Shown here: positions 2,901 to 54,615 of the stretch, in pieces
How positions within the stretch are numbered: position 1 is the stretch's first letter
How the letters are laid out: each line of letters begins with the position of its first letter
From: Bacteroidales bacterium
Lineage (GTDB): Bacteria > Bacteroidota > Bacteroidia > Bacteroidales > F082
Assembly (NCBI GenBank): GCA_017461665.1
Contig: JAFTXI010000030.1
Span: 142,781-206,780 of the forward strand
Direction: 5' to 3'
Length of the DNA stretch: 64,000 bases
The notes under the pieces: generated by a model
The model's input: the letters and a program-made list of their open reading frames with translations, nothing else
What the model was told of the DNA's origin: nothing
Database searches by the model: none
Program-made: the position numbers and the translations under genes

Positions 2901-3803
2901 ATGAAAGAGAGAACAAAGTCTATATTGGTAGCGTTGTCGTTCATAGCTGCCTTGCTGTTGTTTATATGGGGATTTAACTTCTTGAAAGGTAAATCGATAC
3001 TTCGTAACCAATATAATTTTTATGCAGTTTATGAAAACACAAAAGGTCTGCTGCCCGGCGACCTTGTCACCATCAACGGGATGCAGGTGGGAACAGTGAG
3101 TTCGCTGAAATTCCATCCAAGTCAGGACGGCTCCATAGTGGTGGCTTTCGTTATGAACAAAGATTTGGATGTCCCGAGAAACACCGTCGTCAATCTTGCA
3201 TCGAGTCTCACAGGCTCGGTGAGTCTGGAACTCGTGTTAGGCGACTCTCCGCTACTCGCAGAAAACGACGACACTCTTACCTCTGCTTACGACAACGGAA
3301 CAATGGGAATGATAACAGAGACTTTGGTGCCTCTTAAAAACAGCCTGCAGACTCTGCTTAACTCTCTCAACGACTTGACAGCAAACCTCAACGACTTGCT
3401 GAATCAGAATCTTAAAAACGATATTAACAAAGGCGTAAGCAGTTTCGCTTCCTCAATGGAAAATATAAATGCAATTTCCAACGACCTGCAATATCTCACA
3501 GATAAGGAAAACGGAAAACTCACTGTGGTTGTCAACAACTTGGAGACAATAACAAACGACTTCTCCGCAGTTAGCGATTCTTTGAAGGAAATAGATTACA
3601 CACATTTGGTCAACTCTTTGGAGAACACCATCGCCGAGTTCAATATCTTGCTTGAAGGTATCAACAATGGCGAAGGCAGCGTCGGCAGATTAGTGAAAGA
3701 AGACTCGTTGTATAACAACATCAATACCACTGTTGAGACACTTCAGTCTCTTTTGGAAGAGATAAAGGCTAATCCCAAAAAGATAAAACTAAGTGTTTTT
3801 TGA
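2901..3803 (+). CDS. MCE/MlaD family lipid-transport protein
   Basis: A single N-terminal membrane anchor (ILVALSFIAALLLFIWGFNF, about residues 8-27) is followed by one MlaD/MCE domain (YAVYENTKGLLPGDLVTING through VSLELVLGD, about residues 42-115) and a long helical C-terminal region. MCE proteins form periplasmic rings or tubes that move phospholipids between membranes, usually with an MlaE permease and MlaF ATPase; those partners are not in this window. Its place between a cell-wall amidase and an OstA-like protein supports an envelope role. Length (300 aa) is normal for single-MCE proteins of Bacteroidota. Confidence 0.85.
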   Translation: MKERTKSILVALSFIAALLLFIWGFNFLKGKSILRNQYNFYAVYENTKGLLPGDLVTINGMQVGTVSSLKFHPSQDGSIVVAFVMNKDLDVPRNTVVNLASSLTGSVSLELVLGDSPLLAENDDTLTSAYDNGTMGMITETLVPLKNSLQTLLNSLNDLTANLNDLLNQNLKNDINKGVSSFASSMENINAISNDLQYLTDKENGKLTVVVNNLETITNDFSAVSDSLKEIDYTHLVNSLENTIAEFNILLEGINNGEGSVGRLVKEDSLYNNINTTVETLQSLLEEIKANPKKIKLSVF

Positions 3804-3840
3804 TTAATTAGGAATTAGGAATTAGGAATGAGGAATGATT

Positions 3841-3884
3841 GTAGAGACGCGTCAACAACACCATGGAAAATGTTGACACGTCTC
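3841..3884 (+). repeat. GAGACG stem-loop element, short-loop variant
   Basis: GTAGAGACGCGTCAACA and TGTTGACACGTCTC form inverted arms around a short loop starting with ACC. It directly follows a run of TTAGGAA-type units (3808-3838) after the MCE stop codon and is oriented with transcription. Confidence 0.75.
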
Positions 3885-3903
3885 AAAAATAATAGAAGTA
3901 AAC

Positions 3904-3959
3904 GTAGAGACGTATCAACGATACCAATGACAATTAACAATATATCGTTGCTGCGTCTC
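3904..3959 (+). repeat. GAGACG stem-loop element, full-length
   Basis: The left end GTAGAGACGTATCAACGATA pairs with TATCGTTGCTGCGTCTC; the inner arms CAACGATA/TATCGTTG are perfectly complementary, while TAT/CTG forms an internal mismatch shared by other copies. The loop carries ACC and a TTAACAAT segment. It lies between the MCE and OstA-like genes, sense to both. Confidence 0.8.
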
Positions 3960-5518: not shown

Positions 5519-5574
5519 GTAGAGACGTATCAACAGCACCTAAAAGAATAAACAAGAAGTTGTTGCTGCGTCTC
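5519..5574 (+). repeat. GAGACG stem-loop element, full-length
   Basis: GTAGAGACGTATCAACA pairs with TGTTGCTGCGTCTC around a loop with ACC and AATAAACAA. A second right-end copy (CTGCGTCTC) follows at 5582-5590. It lies 3' of the OstA-like gene in sense orientation. Confidence 0.75.
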
Positions 5575-11930: not shown

Positions 11931-14234
11931 ATGAAATACGTATTATCTTTATTTTTAAGTATTTGCATGGCAGTATCATTATATGCCAAATCGGAAGAAG
12001 TCGGTCAGAATATCGATGTCAATCATTATGAGATTCATCTCAACGAAATCAATATCGAAGAAAGAACTCTCAATGCTTCAACCACAATAACGCTGACAAG
12101 CTTAACCTCAATAGAATTTCTACAATTAGAGCTCAAATCTTTAAGCGTTACCTCCGTCACTTCCGACGATGTCTCTATAGAAGACTTCTCGCAAGAAGGC
12201 GACATCTTCACCATAAACCTTAGCTCTGCTGTAGAAGAAAATACAACATTGTCTATTACGATAAATTATGGCGGAAGCACCTTCAACGAAAACTGGGGCG
12301 GCATACACTGGAGCAACGACTACGTCTATAACCTCGGCGTCGGTTTCGACAGTCAGCCTCATAACCTTGGTAAGACATGGTTCCCTTGCGTCGATAACTT
12401 CACCGACAAGGCTTCATACGACTTATTTATCACCTATCCCGACAATATGCTCTCGTCATGCGGCGGTCTCCTCAACGCCACAACAAACAACAACGACGGA
12501 ACAAAAACCGACCATTGGGTCGTGAGTCAGGAGATTGCAACTTATCTGATGTCGTTCGCCATAGGCGACTTCATCTTGTGGGAAGATGTATATCATGGCA
12601 TGGAACGCGACATTCCTATCAACGTCTATGCTAAGTCAAATCAGATAGATAAGGTGGAGGCTACTTTCGCCAACACTAAAGCCATAGCTGCTATCTTTGA
12701 AGAGAAATTCGGACCTTATCCTCATAACAGAATCGCTTACGTCAGCACAGGCCTCGGATGTATGGAACACGTCGATAACATAGCGCTCTCGAGTTCTTTG
12801 ATAACGGGAACAACGAACCTCAACAGCGACTACTTCATCTCGCACGAGATGTCGCATTCTTGGTTCGGCAATAAAGTGACTTGCTCCACCGCCGGCGATA
12901 TGTGGCTCAACGAGGGCTTCGCTACCTTCTGTAACTATTACTATTTCACAGAGATGTATGACGAGGCTACTTACTTGGAAGCGATGGATGCCATGATTGA
13001 CGATATCGTCATGTCGTGTCATCAATCGGAAGGTTGGATACCTCTTAACAACATGCCATTGGACTTGACTTACGGAACGACGGTATATGATAAGGGCGCT
13101 ATCACAGTTCATACCATGATGAATTACTTAGGAAGAGAGACTTTCGATGAGGCGATAAGATATTACCTCAATAAGTTTGATTCCAAGTCGGCTTCGTCGG
13201 AAGATTTGAGAGATGCTATAACAGAGTGTACAGGCATCGATATGAGCGATTTCTTCGAGACATGGGTGTTCACTCCGGGAAGCCCTGCTTATAACGTTCA
13301 ATATTTCACTGTTGAACCTAATGGAGATAAGTTCGATGTTCAGATAAATATGAATCAAAAACATAGAGCCTCCGATCATATTGGCAACAGCGTCGTTTAT
13401 GAGATTTCTTTCGTCGATGAAGATTGGAATCTATATAGCGAGAAAGTCAGTTGGGATGGAGAGAGCGCTGTGGTGACAAAGACCTTAGACTTTGAACCGG
13501 TAGCGATTTTCTGCGACTACGATAATAAGTTTGCTGACGCTTCACATGAAGAGACATACGTCATAAACAGCACAGGCTCAAAAGAGTTTTCAAAAGCCAA
13601 GTTTAAAGCTATAGTCGAAGAGATAAGCGACTCCACATTGTTGCGTATCGAACATCGTTGGGTTGGACCTAAGTCGGTGGGCGAGATACCTGAGGGCTTG
13701 ACAATATCCCCCGACCGTTATTGGACAATTCATCGTTTGGACAAAGGCGAAGCGACAATAAAAGGCGAGTTCCAATATCAAGACGCTGCTAATTATGATG
13801 ATAATCTTATCGTCTCACCAAACGACTCTATAGTCTTGTTGTATCGTCCCGACGGCTCTGCAATGTGGCAGTCGTTGGATTATGTATTCCAAGGTATGAG
13901 CAATTACGGAAGAATGACAGTCGATAACATACAAAGCGGCGACTATGTCTTGGGAATGTGGGACGAAGAACACGCAGACGTCAACGAGATTAACAACAAT
14001 TCCAATATCAAGATTTATCCAAATCCTGCTGAAGGAATAATAAATATCGAGTTAGGTAAGGAGATAAAAGGAAAAATTGTCATTACTAATCAGTTGGGAC
14101 AGACCGTCAAGGAAGTAAAGATAAACGATGATAGAATGACGTTAAACATCGATGAACTCACATCAGGAATTTATTTCGTCAATGTGATGAGTAAAAAGAA
14201 TGTGATTTATAGTGAGAAGATAATTATGAATTAG
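11931..14234 (+). CDS. M1 family metallo-aminopeptidase with T9SS type A sorting domain
   Basis: The protein has a signal peptide (MKYVLSLFLSICMAVSLYAK), an M1 N-terminal saddle domain, the substrate-binding motif GCMEH (276-280, in place of GAMEN) and the zinc site HEMSH (305-309) with the third ligand E328 in WLNEGFATF. It should remove N-terminal residues from peptides. The C-terminus (IKIYPNPAEGIINIEL to SGIYFVNVMSKKN and final SEKIIMN) is a type A sorting domain, so the enzyme is exported by T9SS and released or anchored at the surface. A weak TACTTTTA element lies at 11891. Downstream follow a GAGACG stem-loop and a hairpin terminator. Confidence 0.92.
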   Translation: MKYVLSLFLSICMAVSLYAKSEEVGQNIDVNHYEIHLNEINIEERTLNASTTITLTSLTSIEFLQLELKSLSVTSVTSDDVSIEDFSQEGDIFTINLSSAVEENTTLSITINYGGSTFNENWGGIHWSNDYVYNLGVGFDSQPHNLGKTWFPCVDNFTDKASYDLFITYPDNMLSSCGGLLNATTNNNDGTKTDHWVVSQEIATYLMSFAIGDFILWEDVYHGMERDIPINVYAKSNQIDKVEATFANTKAIAAIFEEKFGPYPHNRIAYVSTGLGCMEHVDNIALSSSLITGTTNLNSDYFISHEMSHSWFGNKVTCSTAGDMWLNEGFATFCNYYYFTEMYDEATYLEAMDAMIDDIVMSCHQSEGWIPLNNMPLDLTYGTTVYDKGAITVHTMMNYLGRETFDEAIRYYLNKFDSKSASSEDLRDAITECTGIDMSDFFETWVFTPGSPAYNVQYFTVEPNGDKFDVQINMNQKHRASDHIGNSVVYEISFVDEDWNLYSEKVSWDGESAVVTKTLDFEPVAIFCDYDNKFADASHEETYVINSTGSKEFSKAKFKAIVEEISDSTLLRIEHRWVGPKSVGEIPEGLTISPDRYWTIHRLDKGEATIKGEFQYQDAANYDDNLIVSPNDSIVLLYRPDGSAMWQSLDYVFQGMSNYGRMTVDNIQSGDYVLGMWDEEHADVNEINNNSNIKIYPNPAEGIINIELGKEIKGKIVITNQLGQTVKEVKINDDRMTLNIDELTSGIYFVNVMSKKNVIYSEKIIMN

Positions 14235-14280
14235 TAATGAATGTGAGTTTTATAGCCTCCGCCCGGTCTCAGAATAACAA

Positions 14281-14320
14281 TAGAGACGTATCAAAATTCG
14301 ATAGAATTTTGCTGCGTCTC
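14281..14320 (+). repeat. GAGACG stem-loop element, minimal-loop variant
   Basis: TAGAGACGTATCAAAATTC and GAATTTTGCTGCGTCTC pair with only GATA as loop. The inner arm CAAAATTC differs from every other copy but is perfectly matched by GAATTTTG. Confidence 0.75.
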
Positions 14321-25141: not shown

Positions 25142-25194
25142 AAGACGCAGCAATTACAAATTGTTTGTTTTCAATGGTGTAATTGCTTCGTCTT
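25142..25194 (-). repeat. GAGACG stem-loop element, minus orientation
   Basis: On the minus strand AAGACGAAGCAATTACA pairs with TGTAATTGCTGCGTCTT around a loop with ACC and AAACAAT. The inner arms CAATTACA/TGTAATTG match perfectly. It lies between the GGGPS and DPP IV genes, sense to both. Confidence 0.8.
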
Positions 25195-25215
25195 TACATT
25201 GTTAACTGTAAATTG

Positions 25216-29031: not shown

Positions 29032-29086
29032 GTAGAGACGTATCAATTTCACCAAAGAAATAAACAATATGAAATTGCTGCGTCTC
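29032..29086 (+). repeat. GAGACG stem-loop element, full-length
   Basis: GTAGAGACGTATCAATTTCA pairs with TGAAATTGCTGCGTCTC; the inner arms CAATTTCA/TGAAATTG match perfectly and differ from other copies. The loop carries ACC and AATAAACAAT. It lies between the M49-like and S46 genes in sense orientation. Confidence 0.8.
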
Positions 29087-31591: not shown

Positions 31592-34500
31592 ATGAAGACC
31601 AATTTTTTATTAGTAATAATTGCTTTGTCTCTCTTTTTAAATGTCAAAGCACAATCATACAACGATTTATGGAAAAATCTTAATGAAAATTTAGAAAATA
31701 ACCTTCCTAAATCAGCAGCTACTATTTTAGACGAAATAGAACTTAAAGCTGTAAATGAGAACGACCAGAAAGAATTGTTGAAAACCTTCCTCTATCGCTT
31801 CAGGATTTTTTATTTGGAAAACGATGAGGCTGTAGAAGCTTCGATAAAGTTCGCCGAAGAAAATATCTCTCGCCTCCAAGAACCTGAAAGAGCGATATTT
31901 AACATAGCAATCGCATCTATCTATGAAATTCGTCAACAGACAACAGACAACAGACAACAGACTTCGTCCATAGAGCTTTGGGAAAACGCTTTCTCCGATA
32001 TAGAATCCTTACAGAAAAACACAACAGAATCATACAAAGATATTTTAACGATTTACGATAAAATGGCAGATATTGATTTCAATATCGAACCTACACTCTA
32101 CGATTATGTTACTCATAAAATCATTCTCTTTGTAGAGACGTCTTATCAAGGCGATTCAAACTTCAATATTCCAGATTTATACCAGAATCTTATTGATTTC
32201 GATAAGAAAAATAATTACACCGATGCTGCTATTTATAACGAGATTCAAAAATTAAAATGTGAATATAATAACTCAGACGACTTTGAAACTTATTTCAATT
32301 CCTTAGAAAATATTAAGAAAGATAACATCGATAATCCACTTGTGACTTCGGTGATGGCTTTGCAGGCTGAAGCGATTTCTCACGTAGAGACGTACGTCAG
32401 TACGTCTGATATATCCAACAAACAAAAGGTATTGGACATTTGTAATGAAGCAATTGAGTTGTTTCCTGAAAGTAAAGGTGCGAAACAATGTGAATCAATA
32501 CGTTCTGAGATTTTACAAAAAGAATTGTTATTATCGATGCAGAATGTGCAAATTCCGAATAAAGATATTACCGCAGAATTGACTTACAGAAATCTGACAA
32601 ATCCTCATTATAGAATATATAAGGTGTCGCAGAAGGATTTGGAAAAACTTAATAAAAGTTATGATAACAGCGAACTTGTAAAGGAACTTTTTAAGAAAGA
32701 ATTGATAGCTGAAAATCATATAGAGATTTTGGATAAGAAAGATTATCAAGAATATACGCTTAATATAAAATTACCAAAATTAGATTATGGAACTTATTTT
32801 ATTATGTTTTCTAAAGATGATAATTTCTCCATGAAAGAAGACGAACTTCCTGCTATTCATCTTTTTCAAGTAAGTAACTTAAGTTTTGTCACGACGAAGG
32901 AAGATGAAGATTTTGTGATATATGTCCTTGACAGAGACAGTGGTAAACCTTTGGAAAATGTAAATGTTAATATTTATAAACAAACTTACGATTATGATAA
33001 AAGGAAGTACGTAAATACAACATTAGCAGATTTGACTACCGATAAAAATGGAACTGCTAAGATTCCGTACGTAGAGAATAACTCGTTCTATGTCAATCTT
33101 TTTAAAGATGGCGATATGCTTTCTGATAGATATATGTATTTTTATAATTATCCTAATAAGGATGAAAAAAAAGAAAAAACTTTCTTCTTTACCGACAGAG
33201 CGATTTATCGTCCGGGGCAGACAGTTCATTTCAAAGGTGTAATTCTTAATGAAAATTTACAAAAGAAGGAATTGTTTGTAGGAAAAGAAACGACAGTTAT
33301 CTTAAAAGATTCTAATTGGCAAGATGTTGCTTCGCAGACTTTTACGACAAATGAGTTTGGTTCTTTCGATGGAAGTTTCGTAATTCCGAATAATGTTTCT
33401 AATGGATATTTTCAGATTAAGAATGAGAGTGGAAGTATAGGTTTTAAGGTGGAGGAATATAAACGTCCGACTTTTGAAATTACTTTTGAAAATCCAGATA
33501 AGTCGTTTAAACTCAATGATGAAGTTGAACTGTCGGGAAGTGTGAGAGCATACGCAGGATTTGGATTGGATAATGTTAATTATAAATATAAAGTGGTTCG
33601 TCGCACATATTTTCCTTATCGTTATTGGAGGTTTGCGAATTATTATGATAATGAAAAACAGATCGTTTTTGGTGATGGAACAACTGATAAAAAAGGAGAC
33701 TTCAATATCAACTTTAAACTTGTTTTTGACGAGAAAGAAAAAGATAAACTTCCTGTTTATGAATATATTGTGACTATTGATGTGACCAATGCACAAGGCG
33801 AGACGCAGTCAAAAACATACACATTAAAAGCTTCCGACATCGACTTGATTATCGACGTTAATAATAGGAGTGAAATTGTTTTCAGAGATAGTTTAGATTT
33901 ATTGACATTTGATGTTAAAAATCTTAAAGAAAATCCTGTCGAAGCAAAGTTAATAAGGAAGGTTTATAGACTTGATTCGAGCAAGTCAAAGGTCACTGAG
34001 CCTGTTGAAATGACCGGCGTATTGACAAGCTCAACGACCAAGTCAAAATACTTAATTTACAATGACACAATCAATGTCAATGGCAGTTATGCCTTATTCC
34101 CAAATGTTAAAAATCTTGTGAATATTGGCAGACATGTAGTTGAATTGATTTCTGTTGACAACGAAAATGTTAAGACTTCTGTTAGATTGACAATCATTGA
34201 TTTAGAAAGCGATGAGATGCCATGCGATACAATGTGTATTTCTTATTGTGACAAAGAGTCAGCGCAACCGAGTGAAGATGTTAATTTTTATTTAGGAAGT
34301 TCTGCCAAAGATGTCAATGTTTATGTCATGATAAAACATGGTAACGAAATTCGTTATTATAAACGTAAGACCATAAGCGATAAAGTCTTGAAGTTTTCAT
34401 ATAAGATAAAAGAAGAAGATAGAGGAAGAATCTCGTTCCAGGCTTTCTTTGTGAAAAACAATACTATTAATATTGTACAGCAGGATGTTTTGGTCCCTTA

Positions 34501-37426
34501 CGATAATTTGAAGTTAGACATAAGATTAGATGTTGAGAGAGACGATTTGCAGCCAGGTTCGAAAGAGAAGTGGAGTCTCACCATTAGGAATTTTGAGAAT
34601 GAAGGCATTGTGGCAAATCTTTTAGCAGGGATGTATGACGCTTCGTTAGATGTCTTCGCTAAGAATAGCTGGTATTTCCCTACGTCTCCGGATATAACAA
34701 TTTCTACTAAGCCGAGATGCGACAACAGCTTCGATAATTTCTTCTGCGCTGCAAACAATAAAAGCTTTAGAAATTATAGTTTGTTCGCCTATACTCTCAT
34801 GTCGGATATGACATTAACACCTTTTGTTGGTTCTCGTTATTATGGTGTTATTAGTGCGAGACAATTGATGTCGATGTCGGCACGTGAAAGAGATGCAATT
34901 GCGACTTCTGTTGGAGGTGTAGAAATATTTCGCTTGGCGGATTCAGAAGAGAACATTGCTGCTAAAGATAATTATGATTTTCAGGAACAAGAATTATCTA
35001 ATCAAATTATTGAAAACCAAGTTCCTGTGCTGAGGGAGAATTTTGATGAGACTGCATTTTTCTATCCTAATATGATAACGAACGATGATGGAAGTCTGAC
35101 GTTTTCTTTCACAATGCCAGACGCTCTTACGCGTTGGAACCTGATGATGCTGGCTTATACTAAAGGCTTGAAAACCGGCACATTAGAAAAAACATTCACT
35201 ACATCGAAGCCTCTTATGATAATGAGCGACATGCCGCGCTTCTGTTACGAAAACGATACTCTTTGGATTGTGGCGAATGTTGTCAAGTCGCCGAGTCACC
35301 AAGTCGCTAAGTCGCCAAGTGTTGGTAATAAGTCGGTGGCTGAGCATGTCGAAGTCACAATGGCTAAATTGGAGATTTTCGATGCTTTGACAATGGAGCC
35401 TTTAAATTTGATTTTGTCGGAACAAGATGTCAATTTAGAAGAAATTTCAGTAGGGCAGAGCAGAAGCGTTAGATGGAAAGTCGCAATTGGTAAGGGCGCG
35501 ACTTGTCACGTCCAGACAAATCTTTTAGCGCTTCGTTTCAGCGTGAATGCAGAAAACTTCTCCGACTCCGAGCAACATTTACTTCCTATTTTATCGGACG
35601 AAGTCTTTATGACGGAGACGTATCCTATGACTGTAAGAGCTAATTCCGAAGAGAAATTTAATTTCGGTTTTAACAATGAGAATGAGAGAAATCAAGGACT
35701 TACGTTAAATTTCTGTGCCAATCCCAAATGGTACGCGATTCAGTCGTTGCAGTATCTTTCTCAGGAATTTGGCGATAATGTTGATGTAGCGTTTAACATT
35801 TTTTATGCAAATAGTTTAGCTGCTCACATAGCGCATAATATTCCTAATCTGTTAAATTATATTAAGAAATGGCAGATAGAATCGCCAGACGTTTTGATGT
35901 CGCAGCTTCAAAAAGATGAGAATCTTAAAGCCATAATGTTGCAGGAGACACCTTGGGTCTTGGAAGCAAAGAACGATACTGAGCAGAAGTCGCGAATTGC
36001 AAACCTATTCGACATCAATGCGATGAGTTATAAAACCACCGAAGCATTAAATATCATTAAAGAGAAACAGTCAATCAATGGAGGATGGTCGTGGTTACCT
36101 AATATGCCAGAAAGTTCTTTTATAACACAAAACATTCTAAGTGGATTCGGTAAACTTTATAAGATGAATGTTATCAACGATTTAGATGATAATCAAAAAT
36201 CAATTGTTAATTATATCGGTGATAATGCAATAAAGTATCTAACAAATGAAATCATCGAAGCTTATAGCGATGTAAAGGATAAAGGTAAATTTCATTCAAC
36301 ACCTTATATAATTAATGAACTTTATGCTTTGAGTTTCTTCGATTATGAAGGAAATGAGGTAACTGAGCCTGTCGAAGTGAGCGATCGTTTCGACAAACTC
36401 AACGGCCAAGTTAAAGATTTTTTCTTAAATCAGCTTAAGAAAGATTGGCAGAAGTTTGATCTTGAGATGCAGGCTAAGATAGCTCTTGTATTACATAGAA
36501 ACGGAGATGTTGAGACTTCACATTTGATAATGGGGTCGTTGAAAGAAAGAGTACGTCAAAATGAAGACGTCGGAGCTTATTGGAGTTCCGATGTTAAGTC
36601 GCAGACTGCTATCATGGAGGCGCTCAGAGAAATATCTCCCGACCCTCTGCTCCTTGAAGAGGCGACGATATGGCTCTTATGCAACAAACGCTGCAATATG
36701 TGGGAAAACGCTGCCACCACCGTAAACGCAATCTATGAATTGATGATTGGTGAATGTCAACAGTCGTCTGTCAACATTAAGAATAACTCTATCACCGTAG
36801 AATCTCTCGTAGAGACGTACGGACATACGTCTCAAAATTCTTCTGAAAATTCATCAGAAGACATCTTTATTCAAAAATATTGGAATGCCAATGAGATGGG
36901 TGATTTTAAAGAATTTAGCGTAAATAATAAGACAGATAATCTAATCTGGGGCGGATTGTTCCGTCAGTATTTTGTTTCTATCGATGAAGTCAGGAAACAT
37001 GAAAGTCCGTTGAATGTTGAGAGAGAATTGTTTGTAGAAAGAGTTAATGAAAACGGTTCATATCTCGTTCCAATAAAAGAAACAGCGCTCAATGTCGGCG
37101 ACAAAGTCGTTGTAAATCTTACCATTGAAAGTGAACAAGAAATGGAGTTTGTCTTTTTAAAAGATTTGAGAGCAGCATGTCTTGAACCTACGGAACAGAT
37201 GTCGCGATACAATTATTCTGACGGAATGTCTTATTATCAAATCAATAGCGATACCTTTATGGGGTTCTATTTCGACAGACTTCCGAAGGGAAAACATCGA
37301 GTGAGTTATTCGATGTTTGTTACGAAAGAGGGAAGTTTTAGCAATGGATATTCTTTCATACAATGTATGTATGCGCCTGAGTTTTCGGCATATTCTTCAT
37401 CAAGTAGGATTGTTGTTGAAGAATGA
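31592..37426 (+). CDS. Alpha-2-macroglobulin family protein (1944 aa) with in-frame repeat inserts
   Basis: A signal peptide (MKTNFLLVIIALSLFLNVKAQ) is followed by an N-terminal helical region, MG-type beta domains (VIYVLDRDSGKPLENVNVNI, TDRAIYRPGQTVHFKGVILN), the A2M domain (YPNMITNDDGSLTFSFTMPDALTRWNLM, split here for length: residues about 1155-1182) and a terpenoid-cyclase-like helical domain (NGGWSWLPNMPESSFITQNI). The GCxEQ thioester motif is absent. Bacterial relatives are thought to trap or inhibit proteases in the periplasm, which fits the protease-rich setting. Seven repeat-derived inserts are visible at about residues 115-124 (RQQTTDNRQQ), 181, 265, 801-817, 1231-1245, 1590-1607 and 1740-1748. 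The frame is intact throughout. Confidence 0.88.
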   Translation: MKTNFLLVIIALSLFLNVKAQSYNDLWKNLNENLENNLPKSAATILDEIELKAVNENDQKELLKTFLYRFRIFYLENDEAVEASIKFAEENISRLQEPERAIFNIAIASIYEIRQQTTDNRQQTSSIELWENAFSDIESLQKNTTESYKDILTIYDKMADIDFNIEPTLYDYVTHKIILFVETSYQGDSNFNIPDLYQNLIDFDKKNNYTDAAIYNEIQKLKCEYNNSDDFETYFNSLENIKKDNIDNPLVTSVMALQAEAISHVETYVSTSDISNKQKVLDICNEAIELFPESKGAKQCESIRSEILQKELLLSMQNVQIPNKDITAELTYRNLTNPHYRIYKVSQKDLEKLNKSYDNSELVKELFKKELIAENHIEILDKKDYQEYTLNIKLPKLDYGTYFIMFSKDDNFSMKEDELPAIHLFQVSNLSFVTTKEDEDFVIYVLDRDSGKPLENVNVNIYKQTYDYDKRKYVNTTLADLTTDKNGTAKIPYVENNSFYVNLFKDGDMLSDRYMYFYNYPNKDEKKEKTFFFTDRAIYRPGQTVHFKGVILNENLQKKELFVGKETTVILKDSNWQDVASQTFTTNEFGSFDGSFVIPNNVSNGYFQIKNESGSIGFKVEEYKRPTFEITFENPDKSFKLNDEVELSGSVRAYAGFGLDNVNYKYKVVRRTYFPYRYWRFANYYDNEKQIVFGDGTTDKKGDFNINFKLVFDEKEKDKLPVYEYIVTIDVTNAQGETQSKTYTLKASDIDLIIDVNNRSEIVFRDSLDLLTFDVKNLKENPVEAKLIRKVYRLDSSKSKVTEPVEMTGVLTSSTTKSKYLIYNDTINVNGSYALFPNVKNLVNIGRHVVELISVDNENVKTSVRLTIIDLESDEMPCDTMCISYCDKESAQPSEDVNFYLGSSAKDVNVYVMIKHGNEIRYYKRKTISDKVLKFSYKIKEEDRGRISFQAFFVKNNTINIVQQDVLVPYDNLKLDIRLDVERDDLQPGSKEKWSLTIRNFENEGIVANLLAGMYDASLDVFAKNSWYFPTSPDITISTKPRCDNSFDNFFCAANNKSFRNYSLFAYTLMSDMTLTPFVGSRYYGVISARQLMSMSARERDAIATSVGGVEIFRLADSEENIAAKDNYDFQEQELSNQIIENQVPVLRENFDETAFFYPNMITNDDGSLTFSFTMPDALTRWNLMMLAYTKGLKTGTLEKTFTTSKPLMIMSDMPRFCYENDTLWIVANVVKSPSHQVAKSPSVGNKSVAEHVEVTMAKLEIFDALTMEPLNLILSEQDVNLEEISVGQSRSVRWKVAIGKGATCHVQTNLLALRFSVNAENFSDSEQHLLPILSDEVFMTETYPMTVRANSEEKFNFGFNNENERNQGLTLNFCANPKWYAIQSLQYLSQEFGDNVDVAFNIFYANSLAAHIAHNIPNLLNYIKKWQIESPDVLMSQLQKDENLKAIMLQETPWVLEAKNDTEQKSRIANLFDINAMSYKTTEALNIIKEKQSINGGWSWLPNMPESSFITQNILSGFGKLYKMNVINDLDDNQKSIVNYIGDNAIKYLTNEIIEAYSDVKDKGKFHSTPYIINELYALSFFDYEGNEVTEPVEVSDRFDKLNGQVKDFFLNQLKKDWQKFDLEMQAKIALVLHRNGDVETSHLIMGSLKERVRQNEDVGAYWSSDVKSQTAIMEALREISPDPLLLEEATIWLLCNKRCNMWENAATTVNAIYELMIGECQQSSVNIKNNSITVESLVETYGHTSQNSSENSSEDIFIQKYWNANEMGDFKEFSVNNKTDNLIWGGLFRQYFVSIDEVRKHESPLNVERELFVERVNENGSYLVPIKETALNVGDKVVVNLTIESEQEMEFVFLKDLRAACLEPTEQMSRYNYSDGMSYYQINSDTFMGFYFDRLPKGKHRVSYSMFVTKEGSFSNGYSFIQCMYAPEFSAYSSSSRIVVEE
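31934..31962 (+). repeat. Period-7 array CAACAGA x4 inside the macroglobulin gene
   Basis: Four exact CAACAGA units encode RQQTTDNRQQ. Seven is not a multiple of three, so gain or loss of one unit would shift the frame. Confidence 0.8.
32384..32407 (+). repeat. GTAGAGACGTAC hairpin inside the macroglobulin gene
   Basis: AGACGTAC-GTCA-GTACGTCT is a perfect 8-bp hairpin encoding VETYVSTS. A half copy (GTAGAGACGTCTTATCAAG) lies in the same reading frame at 32132-32150. Confidence 0.75.
33992..34040 (+). repeat. CTGAGCCTGTTGAA palindrome inside the macroglobulin gene
   Basis: CACTGAGCCTGTTGAAATGA is followed by the diverged inverse TTGACAAGCTCAACGACC. It encodes VTEPVEMTG followed by VLTSSTT. 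Confidence 0.7.
35284..35325 (+). repeat. Period-8 array (CAAGTCGC type) inside the macroglobulin gene
   Basis: Units CAAGTCGC, CGAGTCAC, CAAGTCGC, TAAGTCGC, CAAGTGTT encode VKSPSHQVAKSPSV. Confidence 0.7.
36360..36410 (+). repeat. CTGAGCCTGTCGAA palindrome inside the macroglobulin gene
   Basis: ACTGAGCCTGTCGAAGTGAG and TTTCGACAAACTCAACGGCC are inverted arms around a short centre. They encode VTEPVEVSD then RFDKLNGQ. Confidence 0.75.
36809..36833 (+). repeat. GTAGAGACGTAC hairpin inside the macroglobulin gene, second copy
   Basis: GAGACGTA-CGGACA-TACGTCTC is a perfect hairpin encoding VETYGHTSQ, read in the same codon phase as the copy at 32384. Confidence 0.75.
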
Positions 37427-40791: not shown

Positions 40792-40847
40792 AAGACGCAT
40801 CAATTACAGATTGTTTATTTTTAAAGGTGTCATTGGTACGTCTCTAC
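40792..40847 (-). repeat. GAGACG stem-loop element overlapping the rsmI 3' end
   Basis: On the minus strand GTAGAGACGTACCAATGACA pairs with TGTAATTGATGCGTCTT (one mismatch in the inner arm), with ACC and AATAAACAAT in the loop. It overlaps the last 14 codons and stop of rsmI. Confidence 0.8.
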
Positions 40848-43906: not shown

Positions 43907-43910
43907 ATTG

Positions 43911-43982
43911 TAGAGACGCACCAATATTGGTGCCAGAGCCTGTCGAAGGTACACTATGTCACTTCGACAAGCTCAGTGACCA
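43911..43982 (+). repeat. GAGACG half element fused to a CTGAGC palindrome
   Basis: GTAGAGACGCACCAATATTG includes the palindrome CACCAATATTGGTG. It runs straight into GAGCCTGTCGAAGGTACA and the inverse CACTTCGACAAGCTCAGTG. It lies just after the Omp85 stop codon. Confidence 0.75.
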
Positions 43983-54581: not shown

Positions 54582-54615
54582 GTCTATGAGTCAATAAGTC
54601 TATGAGTCCATAAGT
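54575..54615 (+). repeat. Period-8 array at the 3' end of the FMN-binding gene
   Basis: AGTCTATG, AGTCAATA, AGTCTATG, AGTCCATA begin at the stop codon (CTATAA). Confidence 0.7.

Follow-up and report, generated by a model that had tools for sequence, protein, structure and literature searches.

The window analysed here is a 64 kb stretch of the genome GCA_017461665.1 (2.49 Mb, 60 contigs, 94% complete; hereafter the source genome). It contains hairpins of a stem-loop family for which the initial annotation had listed eight sites. A covariance model made from 40 source-genome copies was run over the window with filters off at E≤1 and returned 19 matches, including the sites at 3841, 3904, 5519, 14280, 25142 (minus strand), 29032 and 40792 (minus strand), but not the one at 43911. 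The stem-loop family is real, and seven of the eight listed sites are copies. The copy at 3841..3884 (+) is a short-loop form of subtype CGT/ACA (41.0 bits). It is followed at 3904..3959 (+) by a copy of subtype TAT/CTG with inner arms CAACGATA/TATCGTTG (75.5 bits); the same subtype recurs at 5519..5574 (+), with inner arms CAACAGCA/AGTTGTTG that are incompletely complementary (71.2 bits). Between convergent neighbours, the copy at 14280..14320 (+) carries the tag ATAG, a very short loop and the arms CAAAATTC/GAATTTTG (34.4 bits). Two copies lie on the minus strand: 25142..25197, with the tag GTAA and inner arms CAATTACA/TGTAATTG (63.9 bits), and 40792..40847, of subtype TAC/ATG with T as the final base (72.5 bits). 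The copy at 29032..29086 (+) has the inner arms CAATTTCA/TGAAATTG (73.2 bits). The eighth site, 43910..43933 (+), is a truncated look-alike, GTAGAGACGCACCAATATTGGTGC, a short palindrome lacking the CGTCTC end. The 12 further matches in the window comprise the opposite strands of the seven sites at lower scores, palindromes at 36809 and 32384, and three weak short ones. Common left and right ends had been claimed for all eight sites. Exact GTAGAGACGTATCAA occurs at three of them (3904, 5519 and 29032) and exact TTGCTGCGTCTC at four (the 3904, 5519, 14280 and 29032 copies), yet both ends are enriched over shuffles: the left end with up to 3 mismatches matches the window 15 times against 2.17 expected, and the right end with up to 2 mismatches 20 times against 4.73, with 0 of 100 shuffles as high in either case.

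Several other repeats are present in the same DNA. Between 43910 and 43990 the truncated hairpin continues into a second palindrome with TTCGACAAGCTCAGTGACC, which is a different repeat; the peptides TEPVEM and TEPVEV in a 1944-aa ORF may be in-frame relics of this TTCGACAAGCTCAGTGACC repeat. That ORF (31592-37426) encodes a bacterial alpha-2-macroglobulin (bMG10, MG2 and A2M above Pfam cut-offs). It also holds the short GTAGAGACG...CGTCT palindromes at 32384-32407 and 36809-36832, both read in frame (VETYVSTS, VETYGHTS) and resembling REPs inserted in genes. Short hairpins at 54614 (+) and 16948 (−), GTAGGGACGTATCGTATACGTCC and GTAGGGACGTATCGCATACGTCC, represent another GTAG-tagged repeat, and hairpins related to them come immediately before several long-family copies of the source genome. 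Intergenic flanks in the source genome, for instance positions 3800-3840 of the window, carry other simple repeats (AATTAGGAATTAGGAATGA, ACAATTAACAATTGACA, AGTCACCGAGTCTATGAGT).

The copy number in the 2.49 Mb source genome is at least about 150. The exact pattern GTAGAGACG-N16..46-CGTCTC matched 93 times genome-wide and the reversed control pattern 0 times; three of the 93 are non-family hairpins and were left out, giving 90 family members. With the covariance model we obtained at least 150 matches, or 147 after the three lowest-scoring were left out; ten of the exact matches, three of them non-family, are missing from the 150. Pair, tag, placement and same-site counts were made with a separate scanner, tolerating two mismatches in GTAGAGACG and one in CGTCTC, on selected stretches that comprise 150 copies of the source genome and 133 of G060. 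The latter is the MAG RGIG4154; over the 18 rows compared, its flanks align to those of the source genome with 77-95% identity. Pair-by-pair counts omit copies shorter than 48 nt, so that 148 of the 150 and 128 of the 133 remain. Of 99 genomes of the genus, 11 carry the exact form, with between 19 and 112 copies apiece, and 88 lack it altogether. When the GTDB collection was scanned for the exact TATCAA/TTGCTG ends, the 53 stretches returned all came from five ruminant-hindgut MAGs of Bacteroidales (RGIG4154, RGIG7675, RGIG313, RGIG9490 and RGIG7249, with 146, 94, 109, 110 and 59 model matches, respectively). The looser GTAGAGACG-N16..46-CGTCTC pattern, which also admits short palindromes, matches 28 of 60 relatives. 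No Rfam family matched the window at gathering scores, and no account of this GTAG hairpin family appeared among the papers listed by literature searches, one of them by sequence; for these two reasons we take it as undescribed.

Each copy has a GTAG tag, unpaired and at the hairpin foot, a 5-bp lower stem AGACG/CGTCT, an upper stem formed by pairs 10-16 or 17 (10-14 only in one short subtype), and an A-rich loop; complementary subtypes interchange in the upper stem. The two arms are equal in length, and pairs were therefore numbered from both ends, independently of any alignment. The tag is conserved among copies that were found with a tag-containing pattern allowing two mismatches: G1, T2, A3 and G4 are present in 146, 146, 148 and 144 of 150 source-genome copies and in 130, 132, 133 and 131 of 133 G060 copies. 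The base facing G4 is C in 110 of 150 and 79 of 133 copies, respectively. Since G4 is near-invariant while the base opposite drifts, it behaves as part of an unpaired tag and not of the stem. Pairs 2-6 are Watson-Crick in 139-147 of the 148 source-genome copies and pairs 10-16 in 138-147 each. Pairs 15 and 16 are looser in G060 (115 and 109 of 128), and in many copies of G067 and G068 pairing ends after pair 14.

Pair 7 is a wobble in nearly all copies. It is T.G in 86, C.A in 55, Watson-Crick in 6 and otherwise in 1 of the 148 source-genome copies, and T.G in 79, C.A in 43 and Watson-Crick in 6 of the 128 from G060. Shuffling the partners gave mean Watson-Crick counts of 70 and 59 (~47%) against the six observed in each genome. 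T.G or C.A accounts for 95% of copies in these two genomes and for 81-88% in three further genomes, where Watson-Crick pairs occur in 4 of 32, 4 of 34 and 6 of 31 distinct copies versus 15.2, 15.6 and 12.5 after shuffling. The three-genome sample is limited to distinct sequences from the first listed sites of three of the 11 element-bearing genomes, found with a pattern that prescribed pyrimidine/purine at pair 7, a pyrimidine at left base 9, and the letters of pairs 10-12. Watson-Crick pairs are more frequent in G069 (the 6 of 31), all of them T-A. T.G and C.A can adopt the same wobble shape. The adjacent pair 8 covaries in the ordinary way, with Watson-Crick partners present in 146 of 148 source-genome copies (A-T 88, G-C 41, T-A 17) and in 119 of 128 from G060. 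Pair 9 is often mismatched in the source genome (C.A 74, T-A 35, T.C 32, few others; n=148), whereas in G067 it is an ordinary T-A in 31 of 32 copies; the family-wide irregularity is thus the pair-7 wobble and not the pair-9 mismatch. The wobble was found in every middle-stem subtype with at least three copies (8 of 8 in the source genome, 7 of 7 in G060). The two sides of the stem covary to preserve the wobble at pair 7, not to remove it.

The observation that started this work, namely that the inner arms differ and each is matched by its own complement, was confirmed by a covariation test on a MAFFT alignment of 40 copies, with pairs 7 and 9 excluded from the structure and 500 shuffles. Four measures were above every shuffle (0/500 as high): paired cells (98.1% vs 90.9%), two-sided pairs (6 vs 3.1), two-sided cells (40 vs 8.1) and the covariation score (0.219 vs 0.077). 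Further pair types were unexceptional in these 40 copies, 95 of 500 shuffles being as high. The six outermost pairs are invariant in the alignment because the copies were selected by those letters. At pairs 10-16, two-sided Watson-Crick variants outnumber one-sided departures by 102 to 30 in the source genome and by 104 to 38 in G060; for pairs 13 to 16 of the source genome the counts are 25 vs 3, 51 vs 7, 11 vs 3 and 14 vs 5. Among single departures at pairs 10-16, G.T is commoner than A.C (15 vs 6 and 17 vs 11), but 19 of the 32 G.T are at pair 11.

Comparison of the source genome with G060 gave 37 shared site pairs among the selected stretches. Matched flanks without a detected copy in the partner were found for 13 source-genome and 11 G060 copies, counts that yield no conserved-site fraction, the G060 stretches having been selected for holding copies. 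Twenty pairs are well flanked (on one side, 8 or more of the 10 adjoining bases agree), and in 15 of them the core is the same (no more than 3 differences over the 14 inner positions). Differences in these 15 affect 6 of 180 outer-stem, 2 of 210 inner-stem and 56 of 324 loop positions and 392 of 1300 positions of the 40-nt flanks; these pairs were chosen for like cores, and the copies were found by family resemblance, so that decayed copies are under-counted. The other five of the 20 pairs carry a core of different subtype, one of them (L139:1601 / L212:1733) with retention of the unusual right end CGTCTA. At two sites (L165/L256 and L175/L218) pair 9 is altered on both sides, from C.A to T.C, and the mismatch is kept. 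The site at 29032 of the window reads CAATTACA/TGTAATTG in L024 (RGIG7675), where a single Watson-Crick pair is altered on both sides and the loop is similar; in G060 it is occupied by another subtype. The slot corresponding to L177:7643 holds a different REP, GTAGGGACGTATCGAATACGTCC, in G060. Inspection by eye of 18 of the 24 apparently absent sites revealed decayed or interrupted copies at four; no clean empty site was seen among the sites inspected, and the flanks carry other repeats. The stems look constrained, in line with one of the two alternatives of the initial annotation, that structure is under selection. After insertion they remain constrained at their sites, perhaps through host-protein binding or continued turnover; conserved stems can also reflect turnover.

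The placement of the copies was determined with a simple longest-ORF caller, one copy per cluster being taken for cluster counts. The 150 source-genome copies divide into 64 sense, 28 antisense, 30 convergent, 9 divergent, 7 within ORFs and 12 with a single neighbour, and the 133 of G060 into 62, 17, 23, 10, 12 and 9, respectively. Of the seven ORFs that hold source-genome copies, three exceed 120 aa. Counted per cluster between co-directional genes, 59 are sense and 22 antisense in the source genome (p about 5e-5), and 57 and 17 in G060 (p about 3e-6); convergent and divergent clusters number 27 and 7, and 20 and 10. Sense copies lie at a median of 37 nt (source genome) and 23 nt (G060) from the upstream stop. 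Every asymmetric copy had been described as sense to its flanking genes; this holds in the window by ORF reading, the copy at 14280 lying between convergent genes, but not genome-wide, where about a quarter are antisense. Sense orientation is a significant bias in both genomes and not a rule. Copies at most 300 bp apart are arranged directly in 12 cases in the source genome and 8 in G060, with tags outside in 7 and 1, and never with tags inside. Direct arrays of four copies (L184, C58:20030-20356) and three copies (L172, C50:189-397) have a spacing of about 75-91 bp. A slippage-like tandem is present in L139 at 13692-13850, where a copy is followed by two incomplete repetitions of its right part, spaced by 51 bp. 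Orientation by replication strand was disfavoured, as adjacent copies lie on the same absolute strand in 29 of 56 cases in the source genome and 32 of 54 in G060. The flanks of the copies revealed no strong target consensus.

A role of the hairpins as RNA at transcript 3′ ends, as stabiliser or terminator, would let selection on the RNA yield the covariation. The sense bias, the poverty of divergent regions and the short distances to upstream stops all speak for such a role, as do the stems constrained at orthologous sites; neighbouring copies whose flanking genes run in opposite directions follow their genes in 8 of 9 cases in the source genome, but in only 2 of 6 in G060. We nevertheless regard this explanation as unlikely. 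Antisense copies are no less well paired than sense copies (12.57 vs 12.39 and 12.65 vs 12.31 of 13 pairs; p 0.32 and 0.11), only 44 of 150 source-genome copies have the tag strand as the more stable of the two RNA strands, and the window matched nothing in Rfam at gathering scores. TTTT occurs within 9 nt downstream of 27 of 131 source-genome and 8 of 112 G060 two-neighbour copies, as a raw frequency; T runs are uncommon after the hairpins, and an intrinsic terminator was rejected on this ground. Equal antisense pairing, strand stability and rare T runs argue against selected RNA stability, not against all RNA roles.

Covariation of the arms could also arise by copying of one arm onto the other, an alternative raised in the initial annotation and here taken as template switching, or by conversion among dispersed copies. 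The roughly threefold excess of two-sided over one-sided variants would fit this origin, and so would the switch of subtype at five of 20 well-flanked shared sites, with the CGTCTA end kept in one. Arm-templated correction, however, predicts a Watson-Crick pair 7, which 142 of 148 and 122 of 128 copies lack. General conversion is opposed by the loops, which vary within each genome and differ between like-stemmed orthologues, opposite to the effect of conversion. Together these counts make arm copying or conversion quite improbable. That the hairpins are some other recombination substrate folded from single-stranded DNA, for example a site resembling integron attC, appears scarcely credible. 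Folded single strands with irregular stems are common to such systems, and a parallel with integron integrases and relaxases is drawn in the sections of PMC8266576 consulted. The present copies are, however, dispersed singly or in small groups and do not form cassette arrays. The attC core GTTRRRY/RYYYAAC is not found at their ends, which are GTAGAGACG/CGTCTC as fixed by the search pattern.

We then come to the enzyme. The Y1 transposase profile PF01797 (Y1_Tnp) found no match in the source genome, 94% complete, and neither did the RAYT protein of a relative used as query at E≤1. The profile was unmatched in five of the 11 element-bearing genomes and matched in 46 of 60 relatives. Thirty RAYT loci of relatives, none of them from the 11 element-bearing genomes, showed no GTAGAGACG hairpin. 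The direct test of linkage is confined to the eight RAYT loci present in six element-bearing genomes: one degraded copy lies within 1.5 kb of them, against about 1.2 expected by chance (calculated from per-genome copy counts, with that of G069 assumed). Five of the eight (L268-L272) adjoin AGTCCCGTAGGGACGACAG-like or AGCGCTGTAGGCGCGACAG-like hairpins of different build, apparently these RAYTs' own repeats. GTAGGGACG beside three RAYTs was rejected as a link, belonging to a different hairpin, AGTCCC-GTA-GGGAC, and a copy 2.3 kb from the RAYT of G009 was not accepted as linkage. One scanned RAYT stayed below the cut-offs of both NF033573 (44.1 bits against 55) and NF047646 (25.3 against 80). As far as tested, RAYT transposases fail to explain the GTAG hairpin family, which is an orphan at present, with no RAYT linked. 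A REPtron, that is a RAYT flanked by the same repeat, was rejected: the source genome has no RAYT match and copies at the eight loci are at the chance level. According to the consulted part of PMC3733652, REPtrons may be absent from species with GTAG repeats; the missing RAYT therefore excludes the label REPtron, not REP.

The hairpins probably constitute a GTAG-tagged REP family that has undergone amplification in certain species of one genus of Bacteroidales. The GTAG hairpin family is new and clade-limited, yet it is a known kind of repeat. The copies are numerous and mostly intergenic (7 of 150 and 12 of 133 inside called ORFs), by the simple gene caller they are placed close to 3′ ends, where the neighbouring genes are uni-directional or convergent, a conserved unpaired GTAG stands at the hairpin foot, and the subfamilies have alternative complementary stem residues. 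An unpaired GTAG combined with an irregular stem is how GTAG REPs are built. In the reading as a REP family, the tag strand, once single-stranded, would fold into the hairpin. A HUH/Y1 nuclease resembling TnpA_REP may recognise it through the tag and the stem irregularity, and such a nuclease, as suggested by the E. coli system, could have copied the hairpin around the genome. The subtypes would spread as entire hairpins, which is why left and right arms would change together, and the pair-7 wobble in all listed subtypes is as expected if the wobble is required for spread. For E. coli REPs, the portions of PMC8266576 used here report that GTAG is essential and that mutations regularising the stem abolish or severely reduce TnpA_REP activity; they also report that the bulge positions were only moderately selected by TnpA_REP in SELEX.

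A more specific possibility, which we put forward tentatively, is that this orphan REP owes its maintenance and spread to an enzyme that is not a RAYT, and that the mid-stem wobble is read as geometry and not as sequence, with T.G and C.A swapped by double changes and Watson-Crick pairs avoided. If this were true, the covariation among the copies would be the natural record left by a protein reading a wobble in folded single-stranded DNA. GTAG REPs are usually explained as RAYT substrates; here two genomes each have about 150 copies with REP anatomy, one of these genomes is without detectable RAYT, and the family is confined to 11 of 99 genomes of the genus. The wobble-preserving covariation is a testable statement on hairpin recognition, and the sharp contrast between genomes offers a gene-content route to the missing enzyme.

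The initial annotation did not recognise the family; its anatomy is that of the GTAG-tagged REP repeats, as far as these are covered by the parts of PMC3733652 and PMC8266576 consulted. With the GTAG REP superfamily (Di Nocera et al. 2013, PMC3733652, in the sections used) it shares the terminal unpaired GTAG, the short palindrome, the high copy number, the location close to 3′ ends, for the most part between genes that are uni-directional or convergent, the subfamilies with alternative complementary stem residues and the occurrence as single units and dimers; some GTAG REP families described there also have non-complementary residues within the stem. It differs from the superfamily by its greater length (about 50-56 nt) and long A-rich loop. 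Bacteroidetes are absent from the list of GTAG-repeat phyla in the consulted part of that work and present in its list for CGTC repeats. Like the E. coli group 2 REPs, as described in the consulted sections of PMC8266576, the present hairpins comprise GTAG, a lower stem, conserved mid-stem mismatches, an upper stem and a loop. The mismatch of group 2 is AA-GC, whereas that of the present family is a single covarying wobble, T.G/C.A; and unlike group 2 REPs with their TnpA_REP, the family has no linked enzyme. Among the TnpA_REP subclasses treated in the part of PMC6006769 consulted, 2.4 and 2.6 both include Bacteroidetes. Subclass 2.4 accompanies long GT[AG]G repeats, which are also inserted in genes without breaking the frame, and the hairpins of other build at five of the eight RAYT loci are reminiscent of the atypical repeats of subclass 2.6.
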